From NCBI GenBank assembly GCA_938084685.1, contig CALKGE010000001.1:1116001-1180000 (forward strand): a stretch of 64,000 bases of DNA, written 5' to 3'. Each line of letters starts with the position of its first letter. Positions within the stretch are counted from its first letter, which is position 1. Positions 2,920-13,031 of the stretch are shown one piece after another. The stretch is from an uncultured Pirellulaceae bacterium. Lineage in GTDB: Bacteria; Planctomycetota; Planctomycetia; Pirellulales; Pirellulaceae. Under the pieces are notes generated by a model. The model was not told where the DNA came from, did not search any database, and saw only the letters and a program-made list of their open reading frames with translations. Position numbers and translations under genes: made by a program.

Positions 2920-5670
2920 ATGTTCAATCGATTTACTATTAAACCTGTCGTTTTACTCGTTGCGCCCATGTTGGTGTTTACCACGCCATTGGCTGATATC
3001 TCCGCTCAGGATGCTCCGGAAATAATTGAGCTGAAGGAGGAATCTTCCGAGGATGCTCAGGATGTCTATGCCGATGGTGCGAGTTACCAGAACGGTGGCA
3101 AGTTTGAAATTGCTATCGAAGAATGGATCAAGTTTCGCGATAAATTCTCGGATGATCCGCTGGCTCCCAAATCCATCTACTATCTCGGAATTTGCTCGCT
3201 GCAGCTGAAAAAGTACGAGGATGCTGTGGCGGCTTTCAAGTTTACGGCGACACGCTATGCCAAGCATGACAACTCGGAAGCAGCATACTTCTACTGGGGG
3301 CGTACCAGGTACGCTCAGGGTTTAGGAACCGATGACGCTGAGAAACGTGCAGAACATCTCACAGCGGCTATCTCGGCCTTTGGGAAACAGCTGGAATTGT
3401 TTGAAAAGGGACAGCTGGCAGATCAGGCTTACTATCTTCGCGGAGAGTCGTTCTACAATCAGGGGGATAAGGAAAAAGCCATTGCAGACTATCGCTCGGT
3501 TGTCACCCTGTTTTCCAAATCAGGATTCAGGGAAGATGCTGTCTATGTATTAGGGGCGACACTGGAAGAGGAAGAGAAGTATAAGGAAGCGGGAGCAGCT
3601 TACGATCTATTCTTGAAGGAGTTTCCAGAGAGTAACCTGCGTACCGAAGTGCGAATGAGAAAAGCTGAAACGTTGCTGCAGAACGATCAGTTCGAAGAAG
3701 CGGCTCAGGTATTTTCCGAAGTGGCAGCCGTGGAAGGATTTCCGCATGCCACTCGCTCTCGTCTTCGACAGGCACTATGTCTGGTTAATCTCGAACAACT
3801 GGATGATGCCTCTACGATTTACCAGTCCGTCTTCGAAGCGACACAAGATGCAGGTCAAAAAAAGACCGCGGTGACTCAGCTCAACGTGCTATGTCGCAAA
3901 TACATTGAAAAGAAGCTCTATGACAAGTCACTCGCCCTCGCCCAGCAGATGGTGGAGAAAGCGGATACGGAAGATCTCAAAGTTCGATTCAAAATGGCTG
4001 TGGCCGATTCACTGGATGGACAGGCAAAATATGCGGAATCACGACCACAGTATTTGGCGATTGCGAAAGATCATGCCGAACATGCTTTGGCGCCGGATGC
4101 AATGTACTTCGCAGCGTTTGCCGCATTTCAGCTTAAACAGTATGACGCAGTTCTCGCAGACTCCACTGCCTTCGAGGCGAAATATGCGAAGCATGAATTT
4201 GCCAAGGACGTGAAGAAGCTTGTGGAAGAGTCGCGAGTACTCAAGAGTGTTGATCTGTTTAAGGACGAGAAATTCGCCGAAACGATTGCACTACTGACTG
4301 CTGTGGTAACGGACAATCCGAAAGGGAAACGGGCTGAAGAGAGTCTGCTGCTGCTGGCTCGAAGTCAAGCACGACTCGAGAAGTATGATGACGCCAAAGC
4401 GAGTATTGGCAAGCTGGTGGCTGGGTTTCCCGAGAGTAAATTATTGCCCGAAGCGATCTATCGACTGGGTGAGTATCACTTTGTAGGTGGTAACTTCGAT
4501 GGAGCGATCACTCATTTTACGTCGGTGATTGACAAGTATGCCGACACGGCCTTTGCCAAAGATGCTGTTGAAAGACGAGCGGATGTGAGATTTGAAAAAG
4601 GCCGTAAACAACTCGCCGATAAACAGGCCGATCAAGCGATTGCTACCTGGAATTCAATTCTCGCTGAGTTGGATGATTACCATTTAGCTCATGCCGTGCT
4701 GTATGAAGTCGCCTTTGCATTGCGTTCCCAGGATAAACATGAAGAAGCTCGCAAAGTCTTTACTCAGTTGGTCACTAAACATGCTGACAGTGATCTGGCA
4801 GCCGATTCGTTCTTCCGGTTGGGAGAGTATCTGTACGACGAAAAGGAATACGGCAAGGCGTTGGAGCAGTACACCAGGGCATTGTCCAGTTCCAGTGAGA
4901 GTGAACTGCAGGAACTGATTCTGCATAAACTGGGGTGGGCCAATTTCCGCAATGATTCCTTTGAAGCGAGTGGGAAATTTTTCGGTCAGCAGGTTGAGAA
5001 ATACGCCGAAGGGAGTTTGGCTGGTGATGGCAGATTTATGCTTGCCGAGAGTCTGTTCAAGCAGGGCAAGTTTCCCGAAGCGCTTGTCGGTTTCGAACCG
5101 CTTGTCGAACAGAAATTTGACAGCGATCATTTTTCAGTTTTGGTGTGGTTGCATGCCGGCCAGTCCGCTGCACAGACAAAGAAATTTGAACAGGCCCGCG
5201 GTTTGCTGCAACGAGTGATTGATTCGGAGTTGGAAGAAGCTGACGCCTATCGTCACGAAGCTCATTTTGAAATTGGTTGGGCCTATGATCGTGAGATGAA
5301 ATTTGAAGAGGCGTTGAAGAGTTTTGAGGCGGCGGGAAGAAATCGAGGGGCGGTCGGTGCCCGAGCTTTCTTCATGATTGGAGACGTTTACTTCAAACAA
5401 AAGAAATTTGATGACGCGATTAAGCAGTTTGACCGTACGCTGCTTCGGTTTGACACAGAGGATGCCAAACCTTGGCAGGCTTTGTCGGCTTACGAAGCGG
5501 GACGCTGCAAAGAAGTGCTGGCGGAAGAGGCCACAGATCAGGAAACCAGGAAAGAACTCGTGAGGCAGGCCATCAACTATTATCAGCAGATTGTTGATGC
5601 ATATTCAGAAACCGAGCACGTTGCCATGGCAAAGGGACGGATTGAGGAATTGATGAAATTGTTGCAGTAA
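2920..5670 (+). CDS. Large secreted tetratricopeptide-repeat protein
   Basis: This 916-residue protein starts at ATG 2920 with a signal peptide ending near SAQ/D (residue ~30). Longer in-frame starts (GTG 2872, ATG 2890) put extra residues before a clean signal sequence and were not used. The rest is a chain of TPR helices with repeated A..Y..G.Y..A...F and FP.S.....A.YRLGEYHF-type units, many resembling the tol-pal/YbgF (CpoB) and BamD style in which each repeat ends in a run of Asp, Ser or Lys before Leu. It is the first gene of a module with an ExbB/TolQ channel (41 bases downstream), ExbD/TolR and a giant TonB-like protein. By analogy with CpoB beside Tol-Pal, it could be the periplasmic scaffold of that motor; this is inference from context. 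Confidence 0.85.
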   Translation: MFNRFTIKPVVLLVAPMLVFTTPLADISAQDAPEIIELKEESSEDAQDVYADGASYQNGGKFEIAIEEWIKFRDKFSDDPLAPKSIYYLGICSLQLKKYEDAVAAFKFTATRYAKHDNSEAAYFYWGRTRYAQGLGTDDAEKRAEHLTAAISAFGKQLELFEKGQLADQAYYLRGESFYNQGDKEKAIADYRSVVTLFSKSGFREDAVYVLGATLEEEEKYKEAGAAYDLFLKEFPESNLRTEVRMRKAETLLQNDQFEEAAQVFSEVAAVEGFPHATRSRLRQALCLVNLEQLDDASTIYQSVFEATQDAGQKKTAVTQLNVLCRKYIEKKLYDKSLALAQQMVEKADTEDLKVRFKMAVADSLDGQAKYAESRPQYLAIAKDHAEHALAPDAMYFAAFAAFQLKQYDAVLADSTAFEAKYAKHEFAKDVKKLVEESRVLKSVDLFKDEKFAETIALLTAVVTDNPKGKRAEESLLLLARSQARLEKYDDAKASIGKLVAGFPESKLLPEAIYRLGEYHFVGGNFDGAITHFTSVIDKYADTAFAKDAVERRADVRFEKGRKQLADKQADQAIATWNSILAELDDYHLAHAVLYEVAFALRSQDKHEEARKVFTQLVTKHADSDLAADSFFRLGEYLYDEKEYGKALEQYTRALSSSSESELQELILHKLGWANFRNDSFEASGKFFGQQVEKYAEGSLAGDGRFMLAESLFKQGKFPEALVGFEPLVEQKFDSDHFSVLVWLHAGQSAAQTKKFEQARGLLQRVIDSELEEADAYRHEAHFEIGWAYDREMKFEEALKSFEAAGRNRGAVGARAFFMIGDVYFKQKKFDDAIKQFDRTLLRFDTEDAKPWQALSAYEAGRCKEVLAEEATDQETRKELVRQAINYYQQIVDAYSETEHVAMAKGRIEELMKLLQ

Positions 5671-5710
5671 TGTCTCTGCCCGGTTAATGCTCAGGTAGTC
5701 ATAGGAACAG

Positions 5711-6619
5711 ATGAAACCAGGATTAAAAATAATGAAACTCGGCTGGAAGAAACCAGTCGGCGTGATCGTACTGTTGCTGTTTGTCACGGCGATTTTTATT
5801 GGCAGTTTGCCAGTGGTATCGGCTCAGGATGAAACGGCTGGCCCAACTGCTGGCAGCGATGTGACCAGTGATCAGGCTGTGGGAGTTGAGGTGACCCAGG
5901 ACGGTGTCGTCGATAACGTCGAAGCCGAAGGGATCAATATTTTCTCGCTGATTGTTCAGGGAGGAGCATTTACGATTCCGATTGGATTGATGTCGCTGGT
6001 TACCGTGACGTTCGTGATCGAACGCTCCATGGCCTTGCGACGGGATCGGGTGATTCCAGCAGCATTGGTCGCTGAGTTGGGATTACTTGCCGAGGAGCAC
6101 GGACAATTCGATCCTCGAGCAGCCTATCGACTCTGTCAACGTTACCCATCTGCGGCAGCAAGTGTTATTCGTGCGATGCTGGTGAAGGTGGGGCGGCCCC
6201 AGGCAGAAGTCGAACGTAGTACTACCGAAACGAGTGAACGGGAAGCCGATCGATTGTACGCCAATGTTCGCTGGTTAAACCTGTCGGCGGCAGTTACTCC
6301 GCTTATGGGGCTGCTGGGTACAGTTTGGGGAATGATCCAGGCGTTTCATGACACGACGGGCTTACCCCAGGGGGTCAACAAGGCAGACTTCCTGGCAGAA
6401 GGGATTTATGTCGCGCTGGTGACAACGCTATGTGGATTGTTAGTGGCTATTCCAGCTGCAGTCTTTTCGCATTATCTGGAAGGGAAACTACAGACGTTGT
6501 TCCACGAAGTGGATGAGTTGTTGTTCAGCCTGATGCCACAAATTGAGCGATTTGAAGGTCGTATGAGGTTTACCTCAGTTGATGGCAGTGAGGATGCTGA
6601 CGAACCATCTTCCGAATAG
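5711..6619 (+). CDS. MotA/TolQ/ExbB proton-channel family protein
   Basis: This 302-residue protein has an N-terminal signal or first membrane segment (residues ~13-33), a short acidic periplasmic stretch, and then the ExbB/TolQ core: a helix at residues ~75-97 (GAFTIPIGLMSLVTVTFVIE), a cytoplasmic loop, and the two closely spaced C-terminal helices. The signature PLMGLLGTVWGMIQAF near residue 197 is diagnostic. ExbB/TolQ proteins form the pentameric inner-membrane channel that couples proton flow to force on a periplasm-spanning partner. An AGGAAC Shine-Dalgarno precedes ATG 5711. It is the second gene of the module and is followed 46 bases later by its ExbD/TolR partner. Whether it belongs to the Tol, Exb or a separate branch cannot be settled by eye. 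Confidence 0.93.
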   Translation: MKPGLKIMKLGWKKPVGVIVLLLFVTAIFIGSLPVVSAQDETAGPTAGSDVTSDQAVGVEVTQDGVVDNVEAEGINIFSLIVQGGAFTIPIGLMSLVTVTFVIERSMALRRDRVIPAALVAELGLLAEEHGQFDPRAAYRLCQRYPSAAASVIRAMLVKVGRPQAEVERSTTETSEREADRLYANVRWLNLSAAVTPLMGLLGTVWGMIQAFHDTTGLPQGVNKADFLAEGIYVALVTTLCGLLVAIPAAVFSHYLEGKLQTLFHEVDELLFSLMPQIERFEGRMRFTSVDGSEDADEPSSE

Positions 6620-6665
6620 GCAATACAACGAATGAATTCCGGCGTCAGTCGGAGAAAATGAACCA

Positions 6666-7076
6666 ATGGCAGTCAAGATAAAGAATAGTCGAGCGTTGGG
6701 CACTTTGAGCCTGACACCACTGATCGATGTGGTGTTTTTGCTGCTTGTATTCTTTTTGGTGGCGACTCGATTTGCACAGGAAGACCGTGAATTGGATGTG
6801 CTGTTGCCCTCAGCCAACACGGCTGCTGCCGTGACAGCTGAACCTAACGAAATAGCGATTAATATAACCCGAGATGGACATTACTTTGTTGGTGGTCAAA
6901 CTTTAGACGAAACAGGATTGTTGCTCGCTCTGAATGAAGCCGTAGCCTCCAATCCATTGGGACAGACAGTGATTATACGAGCGGACCAGCGAGTCCCTTT
7001 TCAATACGTAGCCAATGCCATGAATCTTTGTAATACCGCTGGGATTCATGACTATACAATTGCAACCGAAGAATAA
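6666..7076 (+). CDS. ExbD/TolR family protein
   Basis: This 136-residue protein has the standard ExbD/TolR plan: a short basic cytoplasmic N-terminus, one membrane helix containing LTPLIDVVFLLLVFFLVAT (residues ~16-34) with the proton-carrying Asp, and a periplasmic domain with the family's VIIRADQRVPFQYV segment near residue 105. The dimer sits inside the ExbB pentamer and transmits movement to the periplasm. It is translated between the channel gene and the giant toroid-domain gene (27 bases before its ATG), so the three products very likely form one complex. Confidence 0.95.
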   Translation: MAVKIKNSRALGTLSLTPLIDVVFLLLVFFLVATRFAQEDRELDVLLPSANTAAAVTAEPNEIAINITRDGHYFVGGQTLDETGLLLALNEAVASNPLGQTVIIRADQRVPFQYVANAMNLCNTAGIHDYTIATEE

Positions 7077-7103
7077 CGAGTCAGATTGAGGATCAGAGTT
7101 ACG

Positions 7104-10100
7104 ATGAATTCCCCATCGCAATTCGACGATATTCGCACTCAGGAGCATGTCAACGTGCGAAATAAAATTGTACGTCGCTACGTGCCTAGAACTCGTGTTG
7201 TTTTTGACGAACAACAGTGGCCAGTTAATATTGCACTGGTTGTACTTGGAGGTTTTTTGATTGGTGGTATTTTTGCATACCAACCTTTCGACCCGGAAGC
7301 CGCCTGGTATGCCAGTCCCTGGGTATCACTGGCTATTGTTCTGCTACTGATCTGTACGTCGATTCTGACGTTCCGCTACATCGATAACCGAAAATTTAAG
7401 CGGACCATGCAGTTCTCTGTCATTGTCTGTGCCATTATTCATCTCGTAATGCTGGTGTACGCACTGGAAAGTGAAGTCTTTTCCAAGGGTTGGCGCGGTG
7501 ACATTGCTCAAAAGCAGCTTGTTAAAAAGAAGCCCAAAAAACGACTGGAATATCATCCCAGTCACCAGCAGCAAAATGTCGAGAAGCCTGACTTTTTGAA
7601 ACCGGTTGAAACTGAGGTTCCAGATCCTGAACCTCCGGAGATGGATCAGCAACAGGAGACTGAAACGCCTGAACAGATCCAGCAACCCACGGTAGAGCAG
7701 ACCGAGCCACAACCGATGCCGGAGGTGGTAAAAAAACGGGAAGAGTCATCCCAGTCCACACCTCGTCAAGCAGATTCTACATCCAAACTTAGTCGTAACT
7801 CTGTTCAGCTCCCTAAGCTTAACAAGGTTTCCACGGATGTTGCTCAGCCTGCTGACAACCGTAAGGCGACGCAACCGCGCGTGACGGATGCACCTTCCCG
7901 CAATGTTGCGCGATCTCAGTCGGCAGATAACTTGCAGAAAATGACAGTGCCCGTGGAAGCAGATGTTCCGTTAAAGACGGAGGCGAATAATACACAGCGC
8001 GCGGAAAGCCAGACAGCGAAGGCAACCAATGACGCTCAGCAAAAATCGGCAGTCCGCCAGGAAACAAAATTAGCGGACTTACCCAAGACGCAGGTCACGC
8101 CGGTGCAGAATCAAACAGCTCAGACACAGGCAAAAGAAACTCCTCTGGAGGCTCCTAAAAATACTCTGGCACAGCAGCAACGGACGGCGACACCGGATCG
8201 GAGCGCTACCAATGTGGATCCGACGCCGACGCCAGTGCAGGTGACTGATACAGAGCCCGTGAAGCGGGAGTCACCGAGTCGCGAGCAGGCGACTGTTGCC
8301 AAGGTTCCCATACCAGCAGTCAATCCACGGTCGCAGCGGGTTCCACGCGAGGTGCCTCAGGTTGAACCGGTGGAGTCACCCAAAACTGCCGTTGCCCAGA
8401 ACGCTCCGCAGGTTCAGCCGCGCACCAACGCAACCGCTCAACGTGCCAATTCGGAGTCACCTCAGACTTCGCCGTCAAAAGCCCCTGCTACCAACCCCAG
8501 CCCCATGGTGGTGGCTGAGGCTGTGAATCGTCAGAATCGAACTCAGCCAAATCCTGCTGCAACAGCCGATTCAGCGGCACCGAGTCGTCGGCCGGTTGAG
8601 TTGGCTGCAGTCACACCACCTGCTCAGCCAGTGGAAAACGTGAAGTCGGGTCAACCGAATAAACCGGCTCCCACGCTTACGGCCTCGGCAGTGGAAACTC
8701 CACAGAAACAGTCAACTCCCACGAGAACTCAGAACCAATCCAATGCTCAAAACTCAGCGGATGCTTCCGTGAAGGTGGCTGCCGAGACCACCAATCGTGC
8801 TGTATCCAGCCGTGAACCATCCAACCCAAACGCTCAGTCCGCTCAACGCTCACCGGTAAATCGGCAACAGAGTGCAACGGCAAGCATTTCCAATCCGACG
8901 ACAACGGCCACTGATGTTCAGCGTCCCACTCAAGTCGCTCAGCAGGATCCCAGTCCGAGTGCTGCGAAAGGGAACGTTGCCCGGGCAGATACAAAGCAGA
9001 GCACCAGTCAGCTTCAGCAATTGACAGCAGTCAACAATAATCCGGCAGACACTGCGTCAGGGAGCAACCTGTCACAGCGGCAGGAGTCCCAGCAGACCAG
9101 TCAGTCAGATGCTGTTAATCAGCAGAATTCTCCCCAACGTTCGACAGCAGTGGCAGCCACGATGGCATCTCCCACCAACGCCGATACGCCAGCCAATGCG
9201 AATGCTGTGGCAGCGAATGATTCTCCGTCACTTGAACAGTCGCAACGAGCGACTTCACGGGCAGAGGCGGGGCAGTCGGGCGCCGCGACAGGACAGAACC
9301 TGGCTGCTCTATCTTCGGCTGCCGATAGCCAGGCTGATGTAGCTAACGCGGCGGCTGTGCGAGCAGAGTCAACGCGAAATCAGCCAGCCAACGCAGCCAA
9401 TTCCGCTGACGCATCGCTGGTGCAACGCAATCGTACTCAGTCCGATATTGCGTCGTCGATCCGCAGTCCCAATACGAACACGGAAGCAGGAGTACTGGCG
9501 TCCAACCAACCAGCCGAGCAAACGTTAGAGGCATCTGCTAGCACGAGTCAAAGTGCAGCCCGTGAAGCAACCACCGGCGAATTGAACGCGACGGCTGGTA
9601 TTGCTTCGGCTGACACTGGGGAACCTGATATCAAGTCAGAAGAGAGTTTCAGCAGGGCTTCGGGAGGCGGAGCCAAACAGCTGAGTAATGAATCGGATGA
9701 CGCGGAGCTGGCCAGAAATGTAAGCGGTAAGAACCTGGAAGCTTTGGCTACGAATGTCAAAGCCGAAGCAGCAGCTGCGCCGGAAGGTGCTGGTGGAGCT
9801 CCGGCAGCATCTGCGCTGACTTCCAATGACCAGCCAACCTCGAAAGCAGAATCCGGAGCACTCGCTTCCCTGGCCGGTGATCGTTCGGAGAATGAGTCAG
9901 ATGATGAAGAGGAAGAACGCTTGGGGCAAATAGCTCAAAGTGATATTGCACGAAACGATGATTCACGTAGTGGTCCAGACGGTGCAACGGCTCAATTGGA
10001 TGAAGATATGGCATCTACGGGAGAGGCTGTTGGTAGAACGGCAACAGTTGATAATGCAGTGGCGCTTAATGCACTTGATGTTGGTGCGGAAGCAGCAGCA

Positions 10101-12095
10101 CCTGAGGCAGGCGAGGGCGAGCCAGTTGCCGCTGCGGCTCCGGATGTGGGCGGATCGGCGGGAGAAGAAGCGGCCGTAGAACGAGCCTCCACCGGTGGAA
10201 CTGTTGATGCCACCGAGCAATTGGCCGAGGCAGGTGGAGTGGACGGACCGATGGCAGAGGATGTTCAGCGTGCATCGGGGGCTGTCAGTGCGAGTGATGC
10301 CGAACAGGGAGAAGCCACAGCTGGAGGAGGAACAGCTGCGCCGATGCGATCTAGCCGGGGAACCCCGCTCAACGCATTGGCAGATGTGCCGGAAGTCATG
10401 GTTGAGGGAGCGCCGACGTCTGGCGGAGCAACCACCGGAAGTGAATTGGTGGCTCAGTCAGACGTGGCAGCCGATGCCCCCGGAGGCATTCGGGCCCAAA
10501 CAGATACAGGAGATACAGGTGGGCCTGCTGGGGATACAACCGTAGAAGGTCAGGCAGAGGTTGCCGGCGCTAATATCGGGACACGTAATGAAAAATCGTC
10601 TGCGGCCGAAGGCGATGCAACTCAGGTTGCTGAAGCTGGTGGAAGCAGTGTTGGACGTACTGATCGAGGAGGTCCCGCTTTGGGAGACTTCGGCCCAGTA
10701 GCTGTCGATGTGCCAGATTCAGGAAGTCCCTCGCCGGGCGAGATGAAGGATACAGAATTGGCAGGTGGATATACTGAAGGCCCCGTTGCACAACCTTTTG
10801 CTGAGCCTGTGCCTGTCGATGTATCTGCTGAAGAGGGACTGGGAGGTCTTGGAGAACAGCTTGCAGCCGATGCAGGGATTACAGACAGGCGAGCGAGTGA
10901 AGCGAGTGCTACGATTCAATTGCGACCTTCACGATTCCAGCGTGAAGGAATGGTGGCACTACCCGCACTTAATACTCACGCAACGATTTCGAAGGAATCC
11001 TTTGAGGGACGACGGGAACGTGAAGGGGGTAATGGGGCCGCAGGACCAGAAACGGAAGAAGCCATTGAGAAAGGTCTGGCGTTCCTGGCTCGCTTCCAAC
11101 GCCGCGATGGAAGCTGGTCACTCCAGCAATTTGCAGCGTTTGACGGGGTCAGCGTCATCGATAGTGATACGGCCGCTACCGGACTCTGTCTGCTGGCGTT
11201 TCAGGGGGCCGGATATAACCATCAGCAGCATCAGTACAAAGATTTGTTGCAACGTTCTGTCAATTTCCTGCTTGGCCACCAACAAGCCAATGGTGACTAC
11301 TACATTGCACAAGGGACAGCCAGTAATCAGGTTGCCCGCTTGTACGGGCATGCCATTGCCACACTTGCCATGTGTGAAGCATATGGAATGACACAGGACC
11401 CGCGGATTAAAGATTCTGTACAGCAGGCGTTGAACTTCATCGTCGAATCGCAGCATGAGGAACGTGGGGGGTGGCGATACACGCCCGGTCGTGAGGCCGA
11501 CCTGTCGGTGACCGGTTGGATGTTGATGGCCATTGAAAGTGGTAAACGCGCAGGGCTGGAGATTCCCGAGGAAACGTACGATGGGATTCGGAATCTGCTG
11601 GATGCATCTCAAAATGATAAAAAGCCATTCATGTATGCCTATAATCCATACGCGCCCTCAAATGCACGACAGGGCCAGGGACGAATTCCTTCGAAAACCA
11701 TGACCAGCGTTGGCCTGCTGATGCGACTCTACACCGGTATGGATAAAGGGAGCGAAGCGGCAGAGGCTGGTGCTCTCTATTTTGGGGAAAACCTTCCGTC
11801 AATACGACGTACGAAAGATGCTTCCTTACGCGATACCTATTATTGGTACTACGCGACCCAGTTTATGTACCACATGGGAGGTGAACATTGGCAGCGGTGG
11901 AATGATCGCCTGCATCCATTGTTGGTCAATGGACAGGAGCAGGAGGGTGATCTGGCGGGAAGCTGGGATCCGCGACGGCCTGTGCCGGATCGCTGGGGAC
12001 CGCATGCTGGGCGATTGTACGTAACCACGATGAATCTGTTGAGCCTGGAAGTGCATTATCGCCATCTTCCACTTTATGGTGACCAGGAGAAGTAG
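7104..12095 (+). CDS. Giant TonB-like membrane protein with C-terminal prenyltransferase-type toroid domain
   Basis: This 1663-residue protein starts at ATG 7104, with GAGG 12 bases upstream; a TTG at 7086 is less likely. Three membrane helices lie at residues ~40-60, ~73-93 and ~101-121, which with a basic N-terminus predict a periplasmic C-terminus. A Lys/Pro/Glu/Gln stretch (residues ~135-210, rich in PEPP and PEQIQQP) recalls TonB. Residues ~210-1300 are low complexity: first Gln/Pro/Ser/Thr/Asn-rich, then Ala/Gly/Glu/Asp-rich. Residues ~1314-1655 are an alpha/alpha-toroid repeat domain of the prenyltransferase/squalene-oxidase type, with RRDGSW, SDTAATGL, HAIATLAMCEAYGMT and GGWRYTP. The cyclase DXDD acid motif is not intact (DSDT), so a terpene-cyclase reaction is doubtful. 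It directly follows ExbB and ExbD, making it their likely force-receiving partner. Confidence 0.85.
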   Translation: MNSPSQFDDIRTQEHVNVRNKIVRRYVPRTRVVFDEQQWPVNIALVVLGGFLIGGIFAYQPFDPEAAWYASPWVSLAIVLLLICTSILTFRYIDNRKFKRTMQFSVIVCAIIHLVMLVYALESEVFSKGWRGDIAQKQLVKKKPKKRLEYHPSHQQQNVEKPDFLKPVETEVPDPEPPEMDQQQETETPEQIQQPTVEQTEPQPMPEVVKKREESSQSTPRQADSTSKLSRNSVQLPKLNKVSTDVAQPADNRKATQPRVTDAPSRNVARSQSADNLQKMTVPVEADVPLKTEANNTQRAESQTAKATNDAQQKSAVRQETKLADLPKTQVTPVQNQTAQTQAKETPLEAPKNTLAQQQRTATPDRSATNVDPTPTPVQVTDTEPVKRESPSREQATVAKVPIPAVNPRSQRVPREVPQVEPVESPKTAVAQNAPQVQPRTNATAQRANSESPQTSPSKAPATNPSPMVVAEAVNRQNRTQPNPAATADSAAPSRRPVELAAVTPPAQPVENVKSGQPNKPAPTLTASAVETPQKQSTPTRTQNQSNAQNSADASVKVAAETTNRAVSSREPSNPNAQSAQRSPVNRQQSATASISNPTTTATDVQRPTQVAQQDPSPSAAKGNVARADTKQSTSQLQQLTAVNNNPADTASGSNLSQRQESQQTSQSDAVNQQNSPQRSTAVAATMASPTNADTPANANAVAANDSPSLEQSQRATSRAEAGQSGAATGQNLAALSSAADSQADVANAAAVRAESTRNQPANAANSADASLVQRNRTQSDIASSIRSPNTNTEAGVLASNQPAEQTLEASASTSQSAAREATTGELNATAGIASADTGEPDIKSEESFSRASGGGAKQLSNESDDAELARNVSGKNLEALATNVKAEAAAAPEGAGGAPAASALTSNDQPTSKAESGALASLAGDRSENESDDEEEERLGQIAQSDIARNDDSRSGPDGATAQLDEDMASTGEAVGRTATVDNAVALNALDVGAEAAAPEAGEGEPVAAAAPDVGGSAGEEAAVERASTGGTVDATEQLAEAGGVDGPMAEDVQRASGAVSASDAEQGEATAGGGTAAPMRSSRGTPLNALADVPEVMVEGAPTSGGATTGSELVAQSDVAADAPGGIRAQTDTGDTGGPAGDTTVEGQAEVAGANIGTRNEKSSAAEGDATQVAEAGGSSVGRTDRGGPALGDFGPVAVDVPDSGSPSPGEMKDTELAGGYTEGPVAQPFAEPVPVDVSAEEGLGGLGEQLAADAGITDRRASEASATIQLRPSRFQREGMVALPALNTHATISKESFEGRREREGGNGAAGPETEEAIEKGLAFLARFQRRDGSWSLQQFAAFDGVSVIDSDTAATGLCLLAFQGAGYNHQQHQYKDLLQRSVNFLLGHQQANGDYYIAQGTASNQVARLYGHAIATLAMCEAYGMTQDPRIKDSVQQALNFIVESQHEERGGWRYTPGREADLSVTGWMLMAIESGKRAGLEIPEETYDGIRNLLDASQNDKKPFMYAYNPYAPSNARQGQGRIPSKTMTSVGLLMRLYTGMDKGSEAAEAGALYFGENLPSIRRTKDASLRDTYYWYYATQFMYHMGGEHWQRWNDRLHPLLVNGQEQEGDLAGSWDPRRPVPDRWGPHAGRLYVTTMNLLSLEVHYRHLPLYGDQEK

Positions 12096-12581: not shown

Positions 12582-13031
12582 TCAGTTTTGGCCGAGTGGC
12601 TGAGGTGATAGCAGGCTAAAGGCGATTGCTCCAAATACGGCTTCATTTTCGTCAAATTCCCTATCCTCAGCCTCAGCTACAAACAGGTAGCTAATCCCAT
12701 CTTTCTCGATGGCTGTGGCCGTAATGCAAAGAATGAAGTCCATAAAGTTGAAATACATACGGCTGCCTGTAAGTTCGAAATCGCCAGCCATTTGTCGGTA
12801 CGGTTCTGATTCTTCGTGATCCTCGTATTCCATGTGCATGGCACGGATGGTCTCCTCAACACGCTCCTCCAGGTTTTCAGAACCGGGAAAGATGAAGACA
12901 CTCCACTGAATCGAGCTATCATTTTCCAGCGATACGCTGCGGCAGTGTTTTAATTCGAGTTGCGTTTCACTTACTTTCCAGTTGTCGGGGTAAATAAATC
13001 GGATGTCAGCCTGTTCAAAAACATTAGGCAT
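12582..13031 (-). CDS. Conserved-looking hypothetical protein, 149 residues
   Basis: I do not recognise a named family. The protein starts MPNVFEQADIRFIYPDNWKV and has alternating beta-strand pattern, an acidic middle (EYEDHEESE) and a C-terminal segment ending FSLLSP. There is no signal peptide or membrane helix, so it should be cytoplasmic. The opening (a 'YP.NW' step before strands) and overall strand pattern recall small proteins that resemble the PsbP/DUF1795-like fold, but this is only a resemblance. It is transcribed alone, divergent from the TPR lipoprotein gene 147 bases away. Confidence 0.65.
   Translation of the reverse strand: MPNVFEQADIRFIYPDNWKVSETQLELKHCRSVSLENDSSIQWSVFIFPGSENLEERVEETIRAMHMEYEDHEESEPYRQMAGDFELTGSRMYFNFMDFILCITATAIEKDGISYLFVAEAEDREFDENEAVFGAIAFSLLSPQPLGQN

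Follow-up and report, generated by a model that had tools for sequence, protein, structure and literature searches.

Proton-driven motors of the ExbB-ExbD and TolQ-TolR kind drive TonB, TolA and gliding machines, and are predicted to drive transducers tipped with a vWA domain. In E. coli, Trp38 of ExbB contacts the Ser and His of TonB. The transmembrane (TM) helix of TonB and of TolA docks on ExbB or TolQ via Ser-x3-His (PMC12215075), and the D-box of TonB binds ExbD (PMC10907165). By inference, the vWA transducers also dock through S-x3-H, and a TPR gene is associated with them as well; their domain II has about 100 residues, compared to 40-245 in TonB and 110-335 in TolA (PMC12204202).

We analysed a stretch of 64,000 nucleotides (the window; contig C1, bases 1116001-1180000), part of the 3.43-Mb assembly of a marine planctomycete, in which genes for a TPR protein, an ExbB, an ExbD and a giant protein follow one another in an operon-like row on the + strand (Table 1). 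The original prediction of four genes in one row, separated by 27-46 bases, agrees with the list of open reading frames (ORFs), which holds all four with gaps of 40, 46 and 27 bases and gives the giant the 1663 residues claimed for it. The frame of the TPR protein stays open 5' of its ATG, and an in-frame TTG at 7086 is an alternative start of the giant. Read directly, the N-terminus of the TPR protein probably contains a Sec signal peptide, and the protein is predicted to be periplasmic. Promoter and terminator scans of the window gave results no better than those for shuffles. The unit is flanked by an epimerase gene on the opposite strand and, downstream, by genes for a TPR protein and CorC-like genes; a wider operon was rejected, as the flanking genes are common to only part of the sample of relatives. 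A 149-aa gene without a Pfam match lies 3' of the giant (12582-13031, - strand) and has relatives in 20 of 86 module loci.

Table 1. Features of the four-gene unit, in window coordinates.
Feature	Position	Strand	Evidence
TPR-repeat protein, 916 aa from ATG 2920	2920..5670	+	Many Pfam TPR families; TPR_16 best, 143 bits
ExbB/TolQ-type channel subunit, 302 aa	5711..6619	+	MotA_ExbB, 88 bits (Pfam)
ExbD/TolR-type subunit, 136 aa	6666..7076	+	ExbD, 100 bits (Pfam)
Giant, putative transducer, 1663 aa, ATG 7104	7104..12095	+	ORF; orthologues directly 3' of ExbD in 67/71 loci
TM helix 1 of giant	7218..7280	+	Hydropathy; AF2 helix 19-39 of N-terminal model
TM helix 2 of giant	7317..7379	+	Hydropathy; AF2 helix 52-72
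TM helix 3 of giant, TonB/TolA-like	7389..7493	+	AF2 helix 76-110; His conservation; S-x3-H enrichment
Conserved juxtamembrane segment, candidate D-box-like ExbD contact	7536..7640	+	Tyr 27/38, Pro 36/38
Low-complexity linker, about 1110-1130 residues	7662..11042	+	Composition, profile ends
C-terminal (alpha/alpha)6 toroid tip	11043..12071	+	AF2 pLDDT 89.2, pTM 0.90

Comparison of the unit with TonB-ExbBD and TolA-TolQR shows that they share an ExbB/ExbD motor with intact proton-path residues and a transducer that consists of a TM helix with a docking His (S-x3-H type), a periplasmic linker and a globular C-terminal tip. Conversely, the giant has three TM helices rather than one, its linker is 5-10 times longer, a toroid replaces the small C-terminal domain, a TPR protein is encoded in the operon, and Trp38 of ExbB is not kept; in Pfam, neither TonB_C nor TolA matched the giant. 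The locus has in common with the vWA-tipped transducers the combination of TPR, tolQ-like, tolR-like and transducer genes, the occurrence in the PVC group, an SHLS-type helix, and a C-terminal domain that is unrelated to those of TonB and TolA, whereas it differs in the tip (an alpha/alpha toroid), in linker length (about 1100 vs. about 100 residues), in having one ExbD instead of a heterologous pair, and in the position of the giant after ExbD (PMC12204202). Pfam gave no vWA match in the giant. We consider it likely that the four genes specify a dedicated ExbBD/TolQR-type machine that is driven by the proton motive force and has the giant as its force transducer.

Both motor subunits score far over the Pfam cut-offs. 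The equivalents of E. coli ExbB Thr148 (36/36), Thr181 (35/36), Ser34 (35/36) and Pro190 (35/36) are kept, as is that of ExbD Asp25 (37/37), which in the window is Asp21 (codon 6726-6728), and the profile matches and proton-path residues together place the two proteins in the ExbB/TolQ and ExbD/TolR families. The equivalent of ExbB Trp38 is not conserved, with Val, Leu or Ala found instead, which counts against a force transducer; because of this replacement, docking of the giant on ExbB may be similar, though not identical, to that of TonB.

The three N-terminal helices that had been predicted for the giant were recovered both by hydropathy and by AF2, which models the three hydrophobic segments as helices (pLDDT ~90), the third of them long. 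By the positive-inside rule, the N-terminus of the giant would be cytoplasmic and TM3 would lead to the periplasm. Direct reading of the codons shows the conserved His of TM3 at 7440-7442 and, at 7428-7430, a Cys instead of Ser. This docking His is present in 34 of 38 homologues, with Asn or Tyr in the other 4, and the residue at His-4 is often Ser in TM3 of the giants (LSLMVHL, FSVFIHL, LSLAIHV), compared to Cys-x3-His in the window. The four giants without the docking His, the Cys in the window and the presence of three TM helices are further points against a force transducer. An S-x3-H in a TM helix was found in 41 of 71 long and 25 of 30 short toroid proteins vs. 9 of 708 other TM ORFs nearby (1.3%), which amounts to an enrichment of about 45- to 65-fold relative to a background set that includes some spurious ORFs; a stricter count gave 50/82 and 31/50 toroid proteins vs. 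8/648 in the background. In distant homologues, TM1 and TM2 are separated by an insert of ~320 residues, and motifs of the TM3 kind (e.g., SLLLHLLL) persist in most of them; the deep-branching giants at L138, L142, L239, L242-L245, L247 and L248 have this ~320-residue TM1-TM2 domain, which the giant of the window lacks. The docking His of TM3, together with the intact proton-path residues of ExbB and ExbD, supports, at the level of sequence, the view that the giant is TonB/TolA-like at the motor interface. The position of the conserved juxtamembrane segment that follows TM3 corresponds to that of the TonB D-box; the AF2 N-terminal model, in which confidence is low at that stretch, contains no strand there.

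To determine the conservation of the unit across Planctomycetota, we combined a family- and order-level set with 80 loci from a GTDB species scan and with loci from more remote planctomycete families. Each distinct toroid ORF preceded by 4.6 kb or more of sequence was counted, and ExbB, ExbD and TPR genes were called with profiles from near relatives. Because the selection of loci relied on similarity to the toroid or the N-terminus and on the length of the ORF, independently of the presence of ExbB, the test of synteny is a fair one. At the family and order level, the order TPR-ExbB-ExbD-giant was found in nearly every genome with room for it. ExbD lay directly upstream of 67 of the 71 toroid ORFs with 1000 aa or more, and TPR, ExbB and ExbD were all upstream of 62 of them; the three genes were all upstream of 15 of 19 ORFs of 860-1000 aa, 3 of 11 of 720-860 aa, and 0 of 30 shorter ones. 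The four genes are thus kept together in relatives, as the original prediction expected, and a chance neighbourhood was rejected given this phylum-wide synteny. Only ExbD, of the three genes, adjoins the giant at L151, L156 and L175 (Blastopirellula marina), and none of the three lies upstream at L080, L083, L182 and L249; these loci with reduced or absent motor neighbours also count against a force transducer. Several genomes contain two module types (the window and L084, L055 and L099, L059 and L098). In both toroid and ExbB, the two types of a single genome differ more from each other than do modules of one type from different genera, from which it follows that motor and transducer were inherited together. 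The mirror-tree correlation between ExbB and toroid is r = 0.87, a value inflated by species phylogeny and therefore not relied on by itself.

Between the membrane helices and the tip lies the putatively disordered linker, in which A, S, P, T, Q, G and E abound and hydrophobic residues are scarce. Its predicted description as a TonB-like proline/glutamine stretch applies to the first half, whereas the rest is A/G/E/D/S-rich; its length had been predicted as ~1000 residues and is 1112 residues by profile ends. In the family, the linker length ranges from 203 to 1748 residues (median 717). Within the genus, its length is almost unchanged: an alignment of 1140 codons showed 0-1 gap columns for four genomes and 119 for a fifth, more distant genome, at an identity of 73-75% and with synonymous sites saturated, so that dN/dS is uninformative. 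Linker length seems to be more constrained than linker sequence at short range, and it varies widely between genera. The linker would span the distance to the outer membrane.

The last ~345 residues of the giant have a confident AF2 fold, for which squalene-hopene cyclases are the best structural matches (rmsd about 3 A and 17-18% identity at VIA Z 25-26; 290 residues at 3.3 A for Z 26.0), with matches over model residues 35-377, and many sugar-processing toroids (sugar epimerases, GH76 mannanases) follow close behind. The C-terminal alpha/alpha-toroid that had been predicted is therefore present, and the epithet 'prenyltransferase-type' holds for the fold only, the DxDD motif of the cyclases not being conserved. 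The best Pfam match of the giant is SQHop_cyclase_C, at its C-terminus (27.3 bits, barely over the cut-off of 26.1), and there is also a weak match to Pec_lyase. The alignment to the squalene-hopene cyclase profile misses the DxDD region of the cyclase and is uninformative alone on that motif; DxDD is missing from the toroid of the window and occurs in 5 of 95 module toroids, a chance-like number, at positions that are not conserved. Nor are DDxxD and thioester motifs conserved in the module toroids. Compared to squalene-hopene cyclases, the giant shares the (alpha/alpha)6 toroid fold and QW-like repeats, with a weak sequence relation, and differs in the lack of a conserved DxDD, in an identity of about 17%, in having a single toroid, and in the fusion of that toroid to a motor transducer. 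The conserved toroid residues cluster in loops that precede helices and are rich in aromatic residues (GGWRY..D.S, YYWYYATQ, GSWDP..D.WG...R.Y), a putative ligand-binding face.

Strong conservation of aromatic and polar loop residues, suggestive of such a face, and the fact that the toroid most resembles enzymes in its fold (cyclases, sugar epimerases, GH76 mannanases) are what could be expected if the toroid were a membrane-tethered periplasmic enzyme (a terpene cyclase, or a polysaccharide lyase- or glycosidase-like one) with which ExbB and ExbD are merely co-transcribed. We consider this very unlikely, given that the toroids lack conserved DxDD, DDxxD and thioester motifs, that co-transcription alone does not explain the phylum-wide gene order, and that S-x3-H helices are present even where a toroid protein has no motor genes beside it; a terpene cyclase was rejected as the primary reading on account of the non-conserved DxDD. 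At two loci, L147 (5019-7931, - strand) and L146 (5404-14211, - strand), the same N-terminal helices follow TPR-ExbB-ExbD and the C-terminus is non-toroid, without a Pfam match; that of L147 reads like a Rossmann/amidotransferase-like domain. With these loci in mind, the tip of the transducer may be exchangeable. In the toroid transducer ORF at L141 (6013-10653, - strand), the toroid is preceded by PD40 repeats and followed by a PDZ domain.

In the force-transducing machine that we favour, TM3 of the giant would dock on the ExbB pentamer and the juxtamembrane segment would be held by the ExbD dimer, so that movement of the motor would pull on the linker; the toroid would act as the head that binds a partner, located at the cell wall or the outer membrane, and the secreted TPR protein would be a periplasmic adaptor or scaffold. 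The four products would then physically form one machine. From sequence comparison and structure models, we file the unit as a putative new toroid-tipped, extra-long class of ExbBD/TolQR-driven force transducer, to which the nearest published kind is the vWA-tipped class (PMC12204202). A description of a toroid-tipped ExbBD client was not found in the literature searched, largely open-access papers, and the main text of the Planctopirus essential-gene paper contains no mention of TonB, Tol-Pal or 'biopolymer' (PMC10632474). A further tip class, on linkers of 200-1750 residues and kept across the phylum, would widen the known set of ExbBD/TolQR clients.

Given a force transducer, a Tol-Pal-like housekeeping job, i.e., tethering or remodelling of the outer envelope across the wide periplasm, is quite possible, if short of probable. 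It is favoured over import of a single nutrient because the module is phylum-wide and no substrate-specific genes are conserved beside it in the neighbourhoods of the module loci. The same machine could instead serve TonB-like uptake of macromolecules across the outer membrane, for example at crateriform structures, which join outer and inner membrane; planctomycetes take dextran up into their periplasm by an unknown, CCCP-sensitive mechanism (PMC5394234). We regard this import role as somewhat unlikely, considering that neither a TonB-dependent receptor nor glycan-utilisation genes are conserved beside the module, and that a canonical TonB with two TBDTs is found at another locus of the same genome, a location that also led us to reject an ordinary Ton system. 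In the Agl/Glt machinery of Myxococcus, TPR and TonB-like proteins of the periplasm operate together with a TolQR-like motor, and the module could belong to a comparable adhesion, fibre or gliding apparatus; fibres on the crateriform structures of planctomycetes (PMC5394234) would fit such a surface role as well. The absence of Glt-like companion genes beside the module and its conservation in many families make that role highly improbable. For the force transducer in general, the module provides candidate genes for the coupling of the proton motive force to the outer membrane in planctomycetes, and also for the process, sensitive to CCCP, by which whole polysaccharides enter the periplasm (PMC5394234).

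Motor and toroid genes also occur at other loci of the same genome and its relatives. On contig C13 of the same genome, a second ExbB-ExbD-toroid unit (L084, 5819-8910, - strand) has no adjacent TPR gene, and its toroid protein has 618 aa and an SVFAH helix. On contig C1, a vWA protein with a giant-like N-terminal helix (L257, 9419-10588, - strand) adjoins TPR, ExbB and ExbD genes and seems, by its sequence, to belong to the published class of vWA transducers; on the same contig, L087 (112-11808, + strand) holds another motor unit, in which a 2569-aa TPR protein, ExbB, two ExbD-like proteins and a DUF4159 protein are encoded in a row. Genomes contain as many as 18 toroid copies. The short toroid proteins, of about 500-740 aa (L249-L253 and others), often occur as tandem pairs, and many carry a P-x-W-x-x-S-x3-H helix and have no motor gene nearby. 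Because 25 of the 30 short toroid proteins contain S-x3-H, the stand-alone toroid proteins look like motor clients too. A still broader proposal, which we consider unlikely, is that giants and shorter proteins, many with S-x3-H, constitute one phylum-wide toroid-tipped, motor-coupled family, in which the giants would be proton-driven across a wide and variable periplasm, for instance in macromolecule uptake at crateriform connections between inner and outer membrane. In four genomes (G183, G155, G096 and G125), one in-frame stop codon is present in many of the toroid matches.
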